Positions 4,425 to 63,682 of a DNA stretch of 64,000 nt are shown piece by piece. Below the pieces are notes generated by a model. It had not been told where the DNA came from and searched no databases. It saw only the letters and a list, made by a program, of their open reading frames with translations. Each line of letters begins with the position of its first letter. Position 1 is the stretch's first letter. The position numbers and the translations under genes were made by a program. Source of the stretch: Halothece sp. PCC 7418 (GTDB lineage Bacteria > Cyanobacteriota > Cyanobacteriia > Cyanobacteriales > Rubidibacteraceae); assembly GCF_000317635.1 (NCBI RefSeq), contig NC_019779.1, forward strand, positions 558,001 through 622,000, written 5' to 3'.

Positions 4425-6149
4425 TTAGTAATGATTTCCAACTTTGCGATGGTGAACTGCGGTTAAAGATTCCGGTTTGGAAACTCGCCCTTGGGTAATT
4501 TTGCTATAAACAATCCAATGATCGCTGCATTCCATTCGGCTAACTACTTCACATTCAAGGTAAGCTAATGAATCGGAGAGAATCGGAGACCCGTTATTTG
4601 CCCCTTGGGTATTAACTCCTTCAAAGCGATCGGCACCTGGTTTAAATCGCTTCAGGAAGTGTCGCATCAGATGTTGATAGTTCCCTTCTTCTAAAATATT
4701 GAGAACAAATTGATCGCCCACTTGCATTAACGCCTCGATCGCGCGATCTTTTGCTACAGCAATACTAATCCCTGGCGGATCAAAACTCGCTTGCGCCACC
4801 CAAGAGGCTAACATCGCACTTTTCAGGTCGCCTTTTTTCGCCGTGATAATATAGAGTCCACCGCTTAAGCGTCCCATGGCTTTGTCTAAATCACTATCGA
4901 GGGACTTCATCTGTTTCACGGTTTTCTCTCGCTGTAACCATTGTCCGAGGTCAGTTCCCGCTTCCTCACACAGCTTGTAAGTGCTTTCATTCGGCGTATC
5001 CGTCATCCGAATAGCGGGGAACACTTCTTTTAAGCCTAAATCCGAGAAACGAGTTTTAATGGGATCAATCGGTTCATCATCTTCGCCATAAGATTCAAAA
5101 ACGCCCATGGCTTGCTTAGAAGAAACAGAAGCAAGAATCGTTCCGAGAGTTGCACTGGCTTCACTGGCTTTTTCTCCGCTTGCAGGTGGCATTCCCACCA
5201 CAACAGCGTTGGATCGTTCTACTAATTCTCGCACTTCTTGTTGATCGGCTGCCAACAAGTCCATCATTTCCACATTAATACCTGTTTTCGTAATCCCATA
5301 AGCAATGGCTTGCGAAGCGCGATCGCTGTAACCATAATCGGAAACATAAAAGACAGCAACTGTCTTTTCTCCCTTGGCTTTATTCTCACTCCAGGTGCGA
5401 TAACGATTAATTAATTCTTCCACGTTGTAGCGTAGAATCGGACCATGACCATTGGCGACCATCGCCACATCGCCCAGTTTTCCCATGCGTTTTAACGCCG
5501 ATAAAACCGATCGCGCATTCGGTCCCATTAAACAGTCATAATAGAAGCGATAATCGGGGGAAATTGCCTCTAAATCATTATCGAGTAAGTCATCGCTACA
5601 ATAGTGCATTCCAAACACATCACAGGTGAATAAAATGCCGTTTCCCCAATCATAGGTCAACATGGTATCGGGCCAATGTAAGTTTGGCGCGTTGACAAAC
5701 TCTAACTCATGACCCTTTCCTAAATCGAGTTTTTCACCTGTTTTCACCACTTGACGGTCAAAAGGCTGGTGAACAAATCCTTCTAAAAACTGAATCGCCA
5801 CTTTACTTCCCACAACAATGGCTTGGGGGGCGATTTCTAGAATCTCTTTCACTAAACCGCTATGATCAGGTTCAGTGTGACTAATCACCAGATAATCAAT
5901 TTCTGTCGGATCAATTAAGGCTTTCAGTTGCGATAAATATTGATCGCGGAACTTTTCATGAGAGGTATCGACTAAAGCGGTTTTTTCTCCCCGAATCAGG
6001 AACGAATTGTAAGTGGTTCCATTTTGTAAACCAAATTCAATATCAAAACGATCGCGATCCCAATCTAAACAGCGAATTGCAGTGGTATCAGACGTGAGAT
6101 CGGCGGTTTGAATGGTTAAACGCTTTTCTTGTACGGGTGTTGCGACCAT
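4425..6149 (-). CDS. flv3: Class C flavodiiron protein, Flv3-like (oxygen photoreduction)
   Basis: 574 residues in the cyanobacterial three-domain order: metallo-beta-lactamase-like diiron domain (about 1-260), flavodoxin-like domain (about 265-405) and C-terminal NAD(P)H:flavin reductase-like domain ending HHRKVGNHY. The iron ligands are intact: H91-x-E93-x-D95-H96, His in NLHWPD, Asp in CDVFGMH and His in NGHGP. This places it with the Flv3/Flv4 subgroup rather than Flv1/Flv2, which have substituted ligands. Overall wording closely resembles Flv3 of Synechocystis. Flv3 normally pairs with Flv1 to reduce O2 to water downstream of photosystem I; no partner gene is adjacent. Gene start ATG 6149 follows a purine-rich AGGGAGGGA site. 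A MITE-like element begins 36 bp upstream. Confidence 0.85.
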
Positions 6150-6184: not shown

Positions 6185-6367
6185 TATATAGCACTTCCCA
6201 ATCTCATGAGGTACATTCTAAATTTTGGTTCTTTGTTCTTCGTTCTTTGTTCTTCGTTCTTTGTTATTTGTTGGTTGTTAATCAATGAACCACGAACCAT
6301 GAACCATGAACCATGAACATCCACCGACTCGCATTACGTACCTCAACCAACTAGGAAACGCTATATA
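6185..6367. mobile_element. MITE-like element with heptad-array interior, copy 1 (183 bp)
   Basis: Imperfect terminal inverted repeats of about 30 bp begin TATATAGC and end GAGGTAC on the left (6185-6214), with the complement on the right (6338-6367). The interior contains a run of seven-base units of GTTCTTT/GTTCTTC type (6228-6276), then a second run of GAACCAT-type heptads (about 6284-6319). There is no coding capacity. The TA at each outer edge would fit a TA target duplication, as made by IS630/mariner-type transposases. That mechanism is inferred. A second copy is at 18831-18994. The element fills most of the 358-bp gap between flv3 and the next gene; I see nothing else in that gap. Confidence 0.8.
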
Positions 6368-6507: not shown

Positions 6508-7155
6508 ATGCAACTTCCCTCGCTGACATGGTTGATGACTTGGTTTGGCGGAATTTATTTATTGCTTTTAGGCTCAGTTTTTTTCTTTCTTGGAGTTGCT
6601 GATTTTAGTGTTGCTGATGATGTTTCTAATCCGTCAAAAATTAGTGTTACTGGAAGCGCGATCTCGCTAATAGTGGCGATGATTTTGGTTTTATGGATAG
6701 ATAGCGTAACAACTGAAAAAGATATTTGGAAAGGAGATAAAAATGTTACCCCAGAAAACACAGCCCAAAGCAATGAAGAGTTGAATAACAGTGGCTGTTT
6801 GGGGATTAGTTCAATCTTGAATAAAATTCTGGGAACATTTTTCTATTTACTATTAGTTCCCTTACAATTTACAAAAATTGGGGAATGGTTTTATCAAATT
6901 CAATGGTTTGTATTTAGCACTTTAGACAATTGGTCTTCCCTGTTACCCATTATCCTCGCTTTTTTGTTCTTTCTTTCCTATAGTTTGCAAAAAAGTTTTG
7001 TGTATTATGTATGGCTTTTAGGAAGAATCTGTTTTTTAGGACTACTTTTCACGAATCAAGTTCTATTTCAGTACACCATCATCCCCAGTATTATGGGTAT
7101 ATGTGTACAGTTATCCTATCAACTCCTGCGCCTTGGTTATAAAAAAATGAATTAA
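6508..7155 (+). CDS. Multi-pass membrane protein, unknown function
   Basis: 215 residues with five or so hydrophobic segments: about 10-32, 48-65, 105-122, 145-162 and 170-205. A charged, Asn-rich loop lies between the second and third. No motif I can assign. Its stop codon TAA overlaps the ATG of the following Uma2-type gene by one base, which suggests translational coupling of the two. The base composition is AT-rich compared with housekeeping neighbours, and it sits between a MITE and nuclease-like genes, so it may be accessory. No function is proposed. Confidence 0.6.
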   Translation: MQLPSLTWLMTWFGGIYLLLLGSVFFFLGVADFSVADDVSNPSKISVTGSAISLIVAMILVLWIDSVTTEKDIWKGDKNVTPENTAQSNEELNNSGCLGISSILNKILGTFFYLLLVPLQFTKIGEWFYQIQWFVFSTLDNWSSLLPIILAFLFFLSYSLQKSFVYYVWLLGRICFLGLLFTNQVLFQYTIIPSIMGICVQLSYQLLRLGYKKMN

Positions 7156-18830: not shown

Positions 18831-18994
18831 TATAGCAGTTTTCACGCTTCTTGAGGTACATTCTAAATTTTTGTTCTTTGTTCTTTGTTCTTCGTTATTT
18901 GTTATTTGTTGGTTGTTAATCAATGAACCATGAACCATGAACCATGAACATCCATCGACTCGCTTTGTACCTCAACAGACTAAGAAAGGCTATA
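18831..18994. mobile_element. MITE-like element with heptad-array interior, copy 2 (164 bp)
   Basis: Same build and orientation as copy 1 at 6185-6367. The left end TATAGC...TTGAGGTAC (18831-18859) is mirrored at the right end GTACCTCAA...GCTATA (18967-18994). The interior again has GTTCTTT/GTTCTTC/GTTATTT heptads followed by CATGAAC heptads. It is 19 bp shorter than copy 1, partly because of fewer heptads. It occupies most of the 289-bp gap between tkt and the amidotransferase gene. Confidence 0.8.
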
Positions 18995-27093: not shown

Positions 27094-27142
27094 TAATGAC
27101 CAATGACTAATGACGAATGACTAATGACGAATAACTAATTAA
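27094..27142. repeat. Heptanucleotide tandem array (TAATGAC type)
   Basis: Seven consecutive seven-base units: TAATGAC, CAATGAC, TAATGAC, GAATGAC, TAATGAC, GAATAAC, TAATTAA. The end overlaps the pflA stop codon (27135-27137). Confidence 0.85.
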
Positions 27143-35037: not shown

Positions 35038-35490
35038 TCAACTAGAGGTGGCTTCTGTCGTTTCTGATTTTTTAAAGAATTGTTCTGTAATCCAAGCGGT
35101 AATAATGTGAGAAAGAAGTCCAATTGGACCAGCAAATAGACATAAAATAATGGAATGAACGGTAAAAATTCCTTTTTCTTGTCCTTGCCAATAAACCCAG
35201 CGACCGACAAATAAATCCATGACTAAAAAGTGCGCCCATCCCGTTGCAGCAGCACTTTCTTCACCAAAGAATTGGCTAATCGTCGGTAAATCTGGATTGG
35301 ATAAGGCTTCGGCTGATTCCGCATTTAAAGTATTCGCAAAAAAGAAGATATAAAAACCGACTAAAATAATAAAAGGCACATAAGAAGACATGACTTTTTT
35401 TGTCACGCCCCAATTGGGAAGAAAAATAATTAAAGCCCAAAAGGGTAAAACAAACAGGTTGGCAATATCAAAAGCAAGATTAATATTCAT
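35038..35490 (-). CDS. ABA4-like (DUF4281) membrane protein
   Basis: About 150 residues with four hydrophobic helices and the family pattern ANLFVLPFWALIIFLPNW near the start, then GWAHFLVMDLFVGRW in the third helix and FAGPIGLL in the fourth. Plant ABA4 is needed for neoxanthin formation; cyanobacterial members are usually unstudied, so a carotenoid or membrane role is only possible. The start ATG 35490 is preferred over 35496, since the latter falls in a heptad repeat array. It is followed by another membrane gene. Confidence 0.8.
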   Translation of the reverse strand: MNINLAFDIANLFVLPFWALIIFLPNWGVTKKVMSSYVPFIILVGFYIFFFANTLNAESAEALSNPDLPTISQFFGEESAAATGWAHFLVMDLFVGRWVYWQGQEKGIFTVHSIILCLFAGPIGLLSHIITAWITEQFFKKSETTEATSS

Positions 35491-35518
35491 AGTCATTAGT
35501 CATTAGTCATTGGTCATT
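35491..35518. repeat. Heptanucleotide tandem array (AGTCATT type)
   Basis: Four seven-base units (AGTCATT three times, then GGTCATT) directly abut the start codon of the ABA4-like gene on its upstream side. They provide in-frame ATGs and leave no normal ribosome site. Confidence 0.85.
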
Positions 35519-35575
35519 AGTCTCGCAAACAACAAAAATTAAGCAGCTACTTCGTCACTCCAAAAATTGCGATGA

Positions 35576-59345: not shown

Positions 59346-60188
59346 TTGGGAGAAACCCCTCCTTGTGAGTATGAGTTTCGCGCACAGGAGGTGAAAGAAT
59401 TTGGTTTTAGGACTGATGGGTTGATGTTTCCGCAATCAGATAATCCCAATCATCCGATTATCCTTATAGAGGCGCAAATGCAGCCCGATGCTGAATTATA
59501 CTATCGTATCCTTAATGAGTTGACTACTTATCTGCGTCAGTATCAACCGATTAACCCTTGGCGGGTAATTGTGCTTTATCCAAAACGTTCGATCGAACGA
59601 GTTGTCCCACAATTCGAACAGATAATTTCCTTTTGTAATTTATCTCGTTTCTATCTCAACGAACTTCCTGATCGAGCATCCTTGGGTCAAGAAATTTTGA
59701 AGTTGATTGTTATTCCTGAAAGTGAAGCTCAAACCAAAGCGCAAAACCTCTTACAACAGGCTCAGCAGGAGTTATCAGAGCCGTTACAACTAGAGAATTT
59801 TATAGAATTATTAGTAGAAATCATTACCCGAATTTTTCCCCAGTTAAGTATAGACGAGGTAAGAAGAATGTTAGAGTTAGTTCCCTTTACCCAAACCCGA
59901 TTTTACCGAGAACTCAGACAAGAAGGTCTTGAACAGGGTCTTGAACAGGGTCTTGAACAGGGTCTTGAACAGGGTCTTGAACAGGGTCTTGAACAGGGTC
60001 TTGAACAGGGTCGTCAAGAAGAAGCGCGATCGCTGGTAATGCAATTGATATCATACCGATTTGGTGAAATCCCTTCAGCAATACAAACCCAAGTAAAACA
60101 ACTGAATCTTGAACAAGCAGAATCCCTCGCCAAAGCGCTCTTTGATTTGACTTCTGTTGAAGATTTGCAGAGTTGGTTAGAACAATAA
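59346..60188 (+). CDS. DUF2887 (PD-(D/E)XK/Rpn-like) protein, 5'-decayed, with GLEQ repeats
   Basis: 280 codons from TTG 59346. The frame is open further back to 59289 and reads SSPELAFELLGE just before, which is recognisable DUF2887 sequence, but there is no ATG and the usual N-terminus is missing. The core has RTDGLMFPQS and ILIEAQMQPDAELYYRI, giving the Asp and E-x-Q of the nuclease-like site. Seven tandem GLEQ units follow in the C-terminal helix. Probably a transposase-related nuclease family member now losing its start. It lies between hypE and hypD. Function in cells unknown. Confidence 0.7.
   Translation: MGETPPCEYEFRAQEVKEFGFRTDGLMFPQSDNPNHPIILIEAQMQPDAELYYRILNELTTYLRQYQPINPWRVIVLYPKRSIERVVPQFEQIISFCNLSRFYLNELPDRASLGQEILKLIVIPESEAQTKAQNLLQQAQQELSEPLQLENFIELLVEIITRIFPQLSIDEVRRMLELVPFTQTRFYRELRQEGLEQGLEQGLEQGLEQGLEQGLEQGLEQGRQEEARSLVMQLISYRFGEIPSAIQTQVKQLNLEQAESLAKALFDLTSVEDLQSWLEQ
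59925..60008 (+). repeat. 12-bp tandem repeat, seven perfect units
   Basis: GGTCTTGAACAG is repeated seven times without change, encoding GLEQ seven times in the DUF2887 product. Perfect identity implies recent slippage expansion or contraction, so the unit number may vary between strains. Confidence 0.95.
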
Positions 60189-63501: not shown

Positions 63502-63529
63502 GTTCTTGGTTCTTCGTTCTTTGTTCTTT
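63502..63529. repeat. Short GTTCTTT heptad array
   Basis: Four seven-base units: GTTCTTG, GTTCTTC, GTTCTTT, GTTCTTT, the same wording as inside the two MITE-like elements, but here without their terminal inverted repeats. Confidence 0.8.
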
Positions 63530-63598
63530 GGGAAAGGTAAAGGTTAGGGTTTTAAGTTCCTTTGTCCTTTATCCTTTCTCCTTTAACCGAGTTGGGTA

Positions 63599-63682
63599 AC
63601 TGGTCACTGGTCACTGGTAACTGGTCACTGATTACTGGTCACTGATTACTGGTCACTGGTAACTGGTCACTGATTACTGATC
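63599..63682. repeat. Heptanucleotide tandem array (ACTGGTC type), 12 units
   Basis: Twelve consecutive seven-base units drawn from ACTGGTC, ACTGGTA, ACTGATT and ACTGATC. The array extends into the nifJ 3' end and supplies its stop codon (63674-63676). Confidence 0.9.

Follow-up and report, generated by a model that had tools for sequence, protein, structure and literature searches.

The element and its family in the genome

The element under study, copy 1, lies between an open reading frame (ORF) on the minus strand at 4425-6149, presumably encoding a diflavin flavoprotein, and an unnamed ORF on the plus strand at 6508-7155. All positions are those of the window, the whole stretch of 64,000 nucleotides that was analysed (G000:C1:558001-622000), which is taken from a genome, G000, of 4,179,170 bases in one contig. 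A pattern search for ends places the element at 6187-6365 (179 bp). An earlier note on this DNA had recognized the element and had given it limits of 6185-6367; the true limits are two bases inside these at each end. The terminal inverted repeats, put by that note at about 30 bp, are imperfect 28-bp ends of the form TATAGC…GAGGTAC, matching at 20 of 28 positions by our own count; this match is too low for the repeat-finding run, which listed no inverted repeat at copy 1. Conserved columns of the terminal repeat are nevertheless apparent in an alignment of eight elements from seven genomes. The parts of copy 1, together with the second copy in the window, are:

6187-6365, plus strand: MITE copy 1, with paired ends and an empty site in G004, G002, G003 and G005
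6187-6188 and 6364-6365: TA on each side of copy 1, taken as the target duplication and included in the limits
6187-6214, plus strand: left terminal inverted repeat, 28 bp including TA, TATAGCACTTCCCAATCTCATGAGGTAC (end-pattern search)
6228-6272, plus strand: first heptad array, of GTTCTTT, GTTCTTC and GTTATTT units (Tandem Repeats Finder, 6.4 copies, 86% matches)
6273-6284, plus strand: short joint between the arrays, which by eye recurs in many G000 copies
6285-6318, plus strand: second heptad array, of ATGAACC units (Tandem Repeats Finder, 4.9 copies, 92% matches)
6319-6337, plus strand: spacer from the second array to the right end, recurring in other copies
6338-6365, minus strand: right terminal inverted repeat, 28 bp including TA, TATAGCGTTTCCTAGTTGGTTGAGGTAC (end-pattern search)
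18831-18994, plus strand: MITE copy 2, of another end-subfamily, with arrays at 18870-18918 and 18923-18949, 83% identical to copy 1

The interior carries two heptad wordings, as had been described, with a GTTCTTT-type array followed by an ATGAACC-type array. It does not consist almost entirely of heptads, as the same description had it: of the 123 bp that separate the ends, 79 (roughly two thirds) belong to the arrays. Nor do the two window copies differ mainly in heptad number, since copy 2 departs from copy 1 in both terminal repeats too; the ends fall into subfamilies, and the two copies belong to different ones. With three corrections, the earlier observation on the element itself was largely right.

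Across G000 the end pattern has 108 matches (51 + 57), against 0 for a reversed-pattern control, so the ends are not a product of chance, and a genome-wide check of matching ends, as the note had proposed, finds them shared well beyond the two window loci. Among the 100 of these 108 ends that were listed, 31 perfect-pattern pairs lie no more than 158 bp apart, start to start. BLAST with copy 1 on G000 gave at least 43 matches, by our own reading at no fewer than 40 distinct places, a lower bound because 40 of 279 first-look candidates were scored. Short length, terminal inverted repeats, many copies and no coding capacity together mark the copy 1 family as a MITE. A second MITE family around nested copies, marked by TATAGCGCTACGCGCTA, was considered as well; the sequence occurs at just three places, at L005, L008 and L010, and the family is not supported.

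Target sites and a transposase in other genomes

Copy 1 is absent at the same place in four of the five relatives read (G004, G002, G003 and G005); the flank of the fifth, G001, is unreadable there. The empty site in G003 reads through as TTTTGTGTATATCTTCAGTATCTC, and copy 1 excised so as to leave one TA equals the G004 site except at a single base beside the joint. Of sixteen other element sites looked for in G004, ten were compared. At the sites of L006 and L016, G004 has no element and exactly one TA in its position, the site of L024 is compatible with one TA but ambiguous, and another five are diverged, rearranged or undecided. The element is missing at the sites of L004 and L026 as well, two of the five well-read empty sites in G004, but no perfect TA is left there. 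The check for TA duplications and empty sites suggested by the earlier note has in this way yielded three sites at which the flanks are joined by one TA in the nearest relative, G004, the target of the IS630 family, beside the two empty sites at which the TA is not perfect.

A slightly narrower end pattern is present in 65 of the 292 cyanobacterial genomes sampled. Among the places listed, elements of 1,033-1,038 bp with the same ends were read in other members of the order, G063, G192, G116, G135 and G104, and like-spaced end pairs occur also in G102 and G151, by the listing of places alone. In each of the five long elements read, two ORFs that lie in different frames encode the transposase between them. 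In a family scan of three of the five (L102 in Pfam only, L104 and L105 in NCBIfam also), six ORFs match HTH or DDE_3 families, and transpos_IS630 is the best NCBIfam family of the four ORFs of L104 and L105, with one of the four above the whole-protein cut-off and three below it. An autonomous partner, with HTH plus DDE_3 matches, is provided by these elements of other genomes.

An IS630-type transposase with the same ends, which the note had proposed to look for, was found in five other genomes but not in G000, where a search for the DDE_3 domain gave no match at E 0.001 (5 candidates scored) and a DDE_3 transposase was rejected. Because G000 has no DDE_3 match, present mobility of the MITE is unproven, and the element looks orphaned in this genome. 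DDE_3 matches are present in eight other genomes of the family to which G000 belongs, and none of the 30 such loci fetched from them has perfect ends. At L076, in G003, degenerate ends flank a partial gene at a distance of 1,030 bp, but each has an inner partner, and we read them as two short elements. In G003 copies at contig ends, the sequence beside the end resembles by eye the 3′ end of such a transposase.

Heptads inside and outside the elements

With one detector, a period-7 array was found in 34 of 36 G000 elements, a share inflated by 30 G000 stretches fetched by likeness to copy 1, and in 14 of 40 elements from 21 other genomes. Every one of these elements comes from a stretch picked for its ends or for its resemblance to copy 1. 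Shuffled interiors yielded no more than 1 array, and other periods from 4 to 12 gave 0 or 1. Short elements holding heptads occur in 8 of the 21 other genomes, with words that differ from those of G000: GTCCTTT and AATGACT in G001, GGGAATA in G004, GGGAACA in G030 and G081, GGCAATA and GGCAAGA in G192, GGCAAAA and GGCAAGA in G258 and G151, and AGGAGTC and GGCAAAA in G242. The few elements read in the remaining 13 genomes hold no heptads, and the G003 elements have the ends with heptads in 0 of 5. Two elements of G242, L112 and L113, have both ends and the edge sequence in common, with an array in one and none in the other; the interior of L113 is just 19 bp. By eye, several of the heptad-less same-end elements from other genomes (L226-L230, L242, L243 and L245) carry a G+C-rich palindrome of genome-specific sequence, and L226 has a ACGCAAAGG-like repeat; repeats other than heptads may also sit in the element interior.

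The arrays vary by whole units. In G000, where the pairs come from the 100 of 108 ends listed, 28 of 31 end-to-end distances fall into two classes modulo 7, compared with 9-18 of 31 for moduli 4-6 and 8-11. Among the ends listed for other genomes, which are a part of them, 21 elements of G258, G104 and G240 form a ladder of distances of 68, 75, 82-83 and 89-90, the 18 elements of G102 are all at 88-90 and hardly vary, and the 8 short pairs of G151 measure 65, 66, 66, 66, 79, 79, 86 and 86. Further, five G000 copies have one right flank in common (six copies were tried and five matched), and three of the five are alike in the near left flank as well; unit numbers in the two arrays of the five copies combine in five different ways, with few substitutions elsewhere. 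Most simply, these five copies descend from one insertion. The five array states at one flank make array length the fast-changing part of the element, and the length seems to change after insertion as well.

Heptads are not confined to elements. We sampled 464 kb of G000, composed of 400 kb taken evenly and the window. In the 400 kb, all 33 arrays with a period from 4 to 12 have period 7, and the window adds nine heptad arrays and a single one with a 12-bp period; samples of G192, G002, G258, G001 and G151 also hold a few arrays of periods 8-12. G000 therefore contains dispersed 7-bp tandem units, as in the cyanobacterial heptad repeats (STRR) reportedly described by Mazel and others. A perfect 12-bp tandem repeat, GGTCTTGAACAG, lies at 59925-60012 (Tandem Repeats Finder, 7.3 copies).

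The 464-kb sample contains 31 heptad loci, and 5 of them have an end nearby by a fuzzy pattern. An end profile finds inward end-like sequence at 11 of the 31 (two of them weak), above the 99% point of the null, and outward sequence at 0 of 31, leaving about 20 loci with no end on either side. MITEs and their relics thus make up about one third of the loci in this one sample, the remaining two thirds being neither. The earlier note had named other copies without the terminal repeats as a finding that would count against it; arrays without them exist at these roughly 20 loci, and the heptad class is therefore independent of the MITE. Heptad loci also stand just upstream of genes more often than points drawn at random do: in the same sample of 31 loci, MITEs included, an ATG that opens at least 100 codons, no more than 30 bp away and pointing away from the array, is found at 10, and at 444 of 4000 random points.

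Twelve free loci were compared by eye with the nearest relative, G004. Five have heptads at the same place, one (L122 4663) is doubtful, and six have no array there (L122 14955, L126, L127, L138, W27095 and L140 13599). At four of the five (L121, L129, L135 and W35490) the words are alike and the unit numbers differ. The free arrays of the window that entered this comparison are:

27095-27139, plus strand: free heptad array, AATGACT type, with no terminal repeat; no array there in G004, G002 or G001
35490-35522, plus strand: free heptad array, TAGTCAT type, beside a start codon; array in G004, none in G001 or G002
63502-63681, plus strand: free compound heptad array, GTTCTTT, GTCCTTT and GGTCACT types; other-worded heptads in G004 (W63485, compared with L176)

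At the last of these, the G004 heptads are by eye in register and differently worded (GTTCTTN here, GTYATTN there), as if the array had been reworded in concert. A two-arm architecture was seen by eye in some free arrays (L122 and L130), uncounted, and we do not claim it as proof of a mobile hairpin.

The words divide unequally between elements and free arrays. Of 46 exact ATGAACC loci in the whole of G000, 44 adjoin at least one end (37 with the perfect pattern, 7 with weaker or unlisted ends). At the remaining two, a MITE interior that has no ends lies within copies of a broken tnpB, L332 and L333, which are 96% identical over 1.2 kb. In L332, the copy scanned, the first part of the gene (HTH_OrfB_IS605) and its last part (the second half of the OrfB_IS605 domain, and TNB) flank the MITE interior, and the middle of the gene is missing. 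This arrangement fits either the patching of a deletion with heptads or a MITE that inserted and then lost both its ends together with gene sequence. Because ATGAACC is free at no locus of the 464-kb sample, its array may have arisen inside the MITE. The words GTCCTTT, AATGACT and AATGACC, by contrast, are free at 22 of 23 sampled G000 loci, and GGTCACT arrays mostly have no end.

Element words recur as free words of the same genome. Free GTTCTTT occurs at 13 loci in G000 and at 0 in 459 kb of G192, G151, G258, G102 and G242; free GTCCTTT and AATGACT at 8 and 6 loci in G001; free GGCAAGA and GGCAAAA at 4 loci each in G258; and free GGAGTCA at 2 loci in G242 and 0 in eight other samples. An element word is also free in five of the six genomes tested, a match reached by 7 of 720 label permutations (better than in 713), in a small test of non-independent genomes with words picked from the elements themselves. 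The G004 element words are free at 0 loci in 120 kb. G000 also holds the words of G001, of the same genus, freely, and G002, left out of the test since no complete element was found in it, has free GGCAAGA at 3 loci and free GGCAAAA at 4 in 60 kb.

The suggestion of the earlier note that the MITE may spread heptads holds to this extent: the element multiplies the heptads inside it, as ATGAACC illustrates with its 44 of 46 loci, and it is not the main spreader, given the loci without ends. It multiplies a minority of heptads, and most likely carries them from a separate genome-wide pool rather than creating that pool.

Origin of the heptad-filled interior

We consider it likely that the family derives from an IS630-family transposon with TA as its target and is non-autonomous, with interior heptads that come from the host pool or share a source with it, change by whole units and are copied by transposition. 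The ends and the TA empty sites at three sites are observed, as is a transposase in other genomes; such an enzyme would keep the ends and leave free the interior, the former place of the transposase gene. Mobilisation would have been in trans, by an IS630 transposase now missing from G000. The interior arrays would have been acquired from the host-wide heptad pool, or from the same source as that pool; the match of words in five of six genomes is observed, and no acquisition event was caught in the act. The observed whole-unit variation and array states would reflect growth and shrinkage in place, most simply by replication slippage, and each transposition would copy the current state of the array elsewhere. 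Gap repair, recombination with free arrays and expansion of a seed within the element are all possible routes to the arrays; the ATGAACC array favours internal growth, and the GTTCTTT array exchange. One version of acquisition, which we hold as possible but doubtful, is that heptads are circulating patch DNA, so that lost transposon interiors are filled from the current pool of the host and words are exchanged. The broken tnpB would then be a second, unrelated case, and new MITEs would be born filled with whatever word the host circulates at the time.

Other readings account for part of these data. On one of them, heptads would originate in the MITE and be spread mainly by it, and free arrays would be interiors that have lost their ends. 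That reading would explain the inward end-like sequence at 11 of 31 loci (9 without the two weak ones) with 0 in the outward control, the two end-less interiors inside broken tnpB copies and the MITE-borne ATGAACC. It is nonetheless improbable: about 20 of the 31 loci have no end on either side, five of the 12 free loci (L121, L129, L135, W35490 and W63485) have heptads at the same G004 place, GTCCTTT, AATGACT and AATGACC are free at nearly all sampled G000 loci and GGTCACT arrays mostly lack ends, and the G003 elements have ends with no heptads. We regard it as unlikely, too, that nothing is exchanged, and that independent slippage inside each MITE and outside it produced arrays whose common wording reflects base composition or chance. 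Slippage alone would give arrays that differ by whole units, and of the periods from 4 to 11 the 464 kb of G000 contain period 7 alone, with ATGAACC almost confined to MITEs; yet the same words occur inside and outside elements within a genome, and distant genomes lack them or have few, as for GTTCTTT, with its 13 free G000 loci against 0 in 459 kb.

Least to be expected, and in our judgement very improbable, is that the heptads serve a function in the transposon, whether as hairpin arms, as spacer DNA that helps transposition or as transcribed sequence. Partial complementarity of the two arrays is visible by eye, and the strand as a whole folds better than its shuffled versions (z -2.68), but the interior taken by itself shows no such advantage (z 0.05), which means that the fold effect comes from the ends, and a hairpin function of the two arrays was rejected on this value. 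Elements with the same ends have, moreover, multiplied in G003 without heptads, and L113 has its interior of 19 bp.

The reading we prefer, of a TA-inserting IS630 derivative filled from or alongside the host pool, has partial precedents. The ground was partly prepared by Elhai and others in 2008, who are said to have described, in Nostoc, small dispersed repeats lying within tandem heptamers or minitransposons. Cyanobacteria have other small non-autonomous elements, among them Nezha and further MITEs. BrickBuilt, described from Porphyromonas gingivalis and P. gulae, is a MITE of P. gingivalis with a 23-bp unit and IS5-type ends; it resembles the copy 1 family in its MITE-like inverted-repeat ends, its tandem-array interior and a copy number that varies between loci, and in both cases the parent IS is inferred from the ends, with no transposase remnant inside (PMC4596501). 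In contrast to BrickBuilt as described there, the elements here have 7-bp units, IS630 ends, two arrays per G000 element and genome-specific words that often match the free repeats of the host. A study of the heptameric GGGGA(T/C)T repeats of Nostoc states that such repeats were generally not found in association with mobile elements (PMC4692102). STRR and the present heptads alike consist of 7-bp tandem units, occur many times in a genome, are over-represented in intergenic DNA and vary in unit number; unlike the Nostoc repeats, a defined share of heptads here lies inside a transposon family (PMC4692102). The open-access literature searched, mainly titles and the starts of abstracts, contained no report of heptad-filled MITEs in cyanobacteria. 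Within that literature, a MITE with a tandem-repeat interior is known, and the joining of like IS630-type ends, across genera, to interiors that often follow the host wording did not turn up.

These observations bear on how cyanobacterial heptads arise, spread and keep to a limited set of words per genome, and some apparently simple heptad loci are transposon copies or relics. Constant ends around an interior that often follows the host wording make a natural tracer, which dates arrays, supplies empty sites and separates growth in place from movement. Two further places may be added as observations. At L022 1500-1656, a MITE copy is apparently inserted inside a heptad array, with GTTATTTGTTC on one side and GGTTCTTTGG on the other. 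At L341, a segment that includes a heptad array is directly repeated about 1.5 kb apart, and the second copy ends in an apparent relic of the right terminal repeat.
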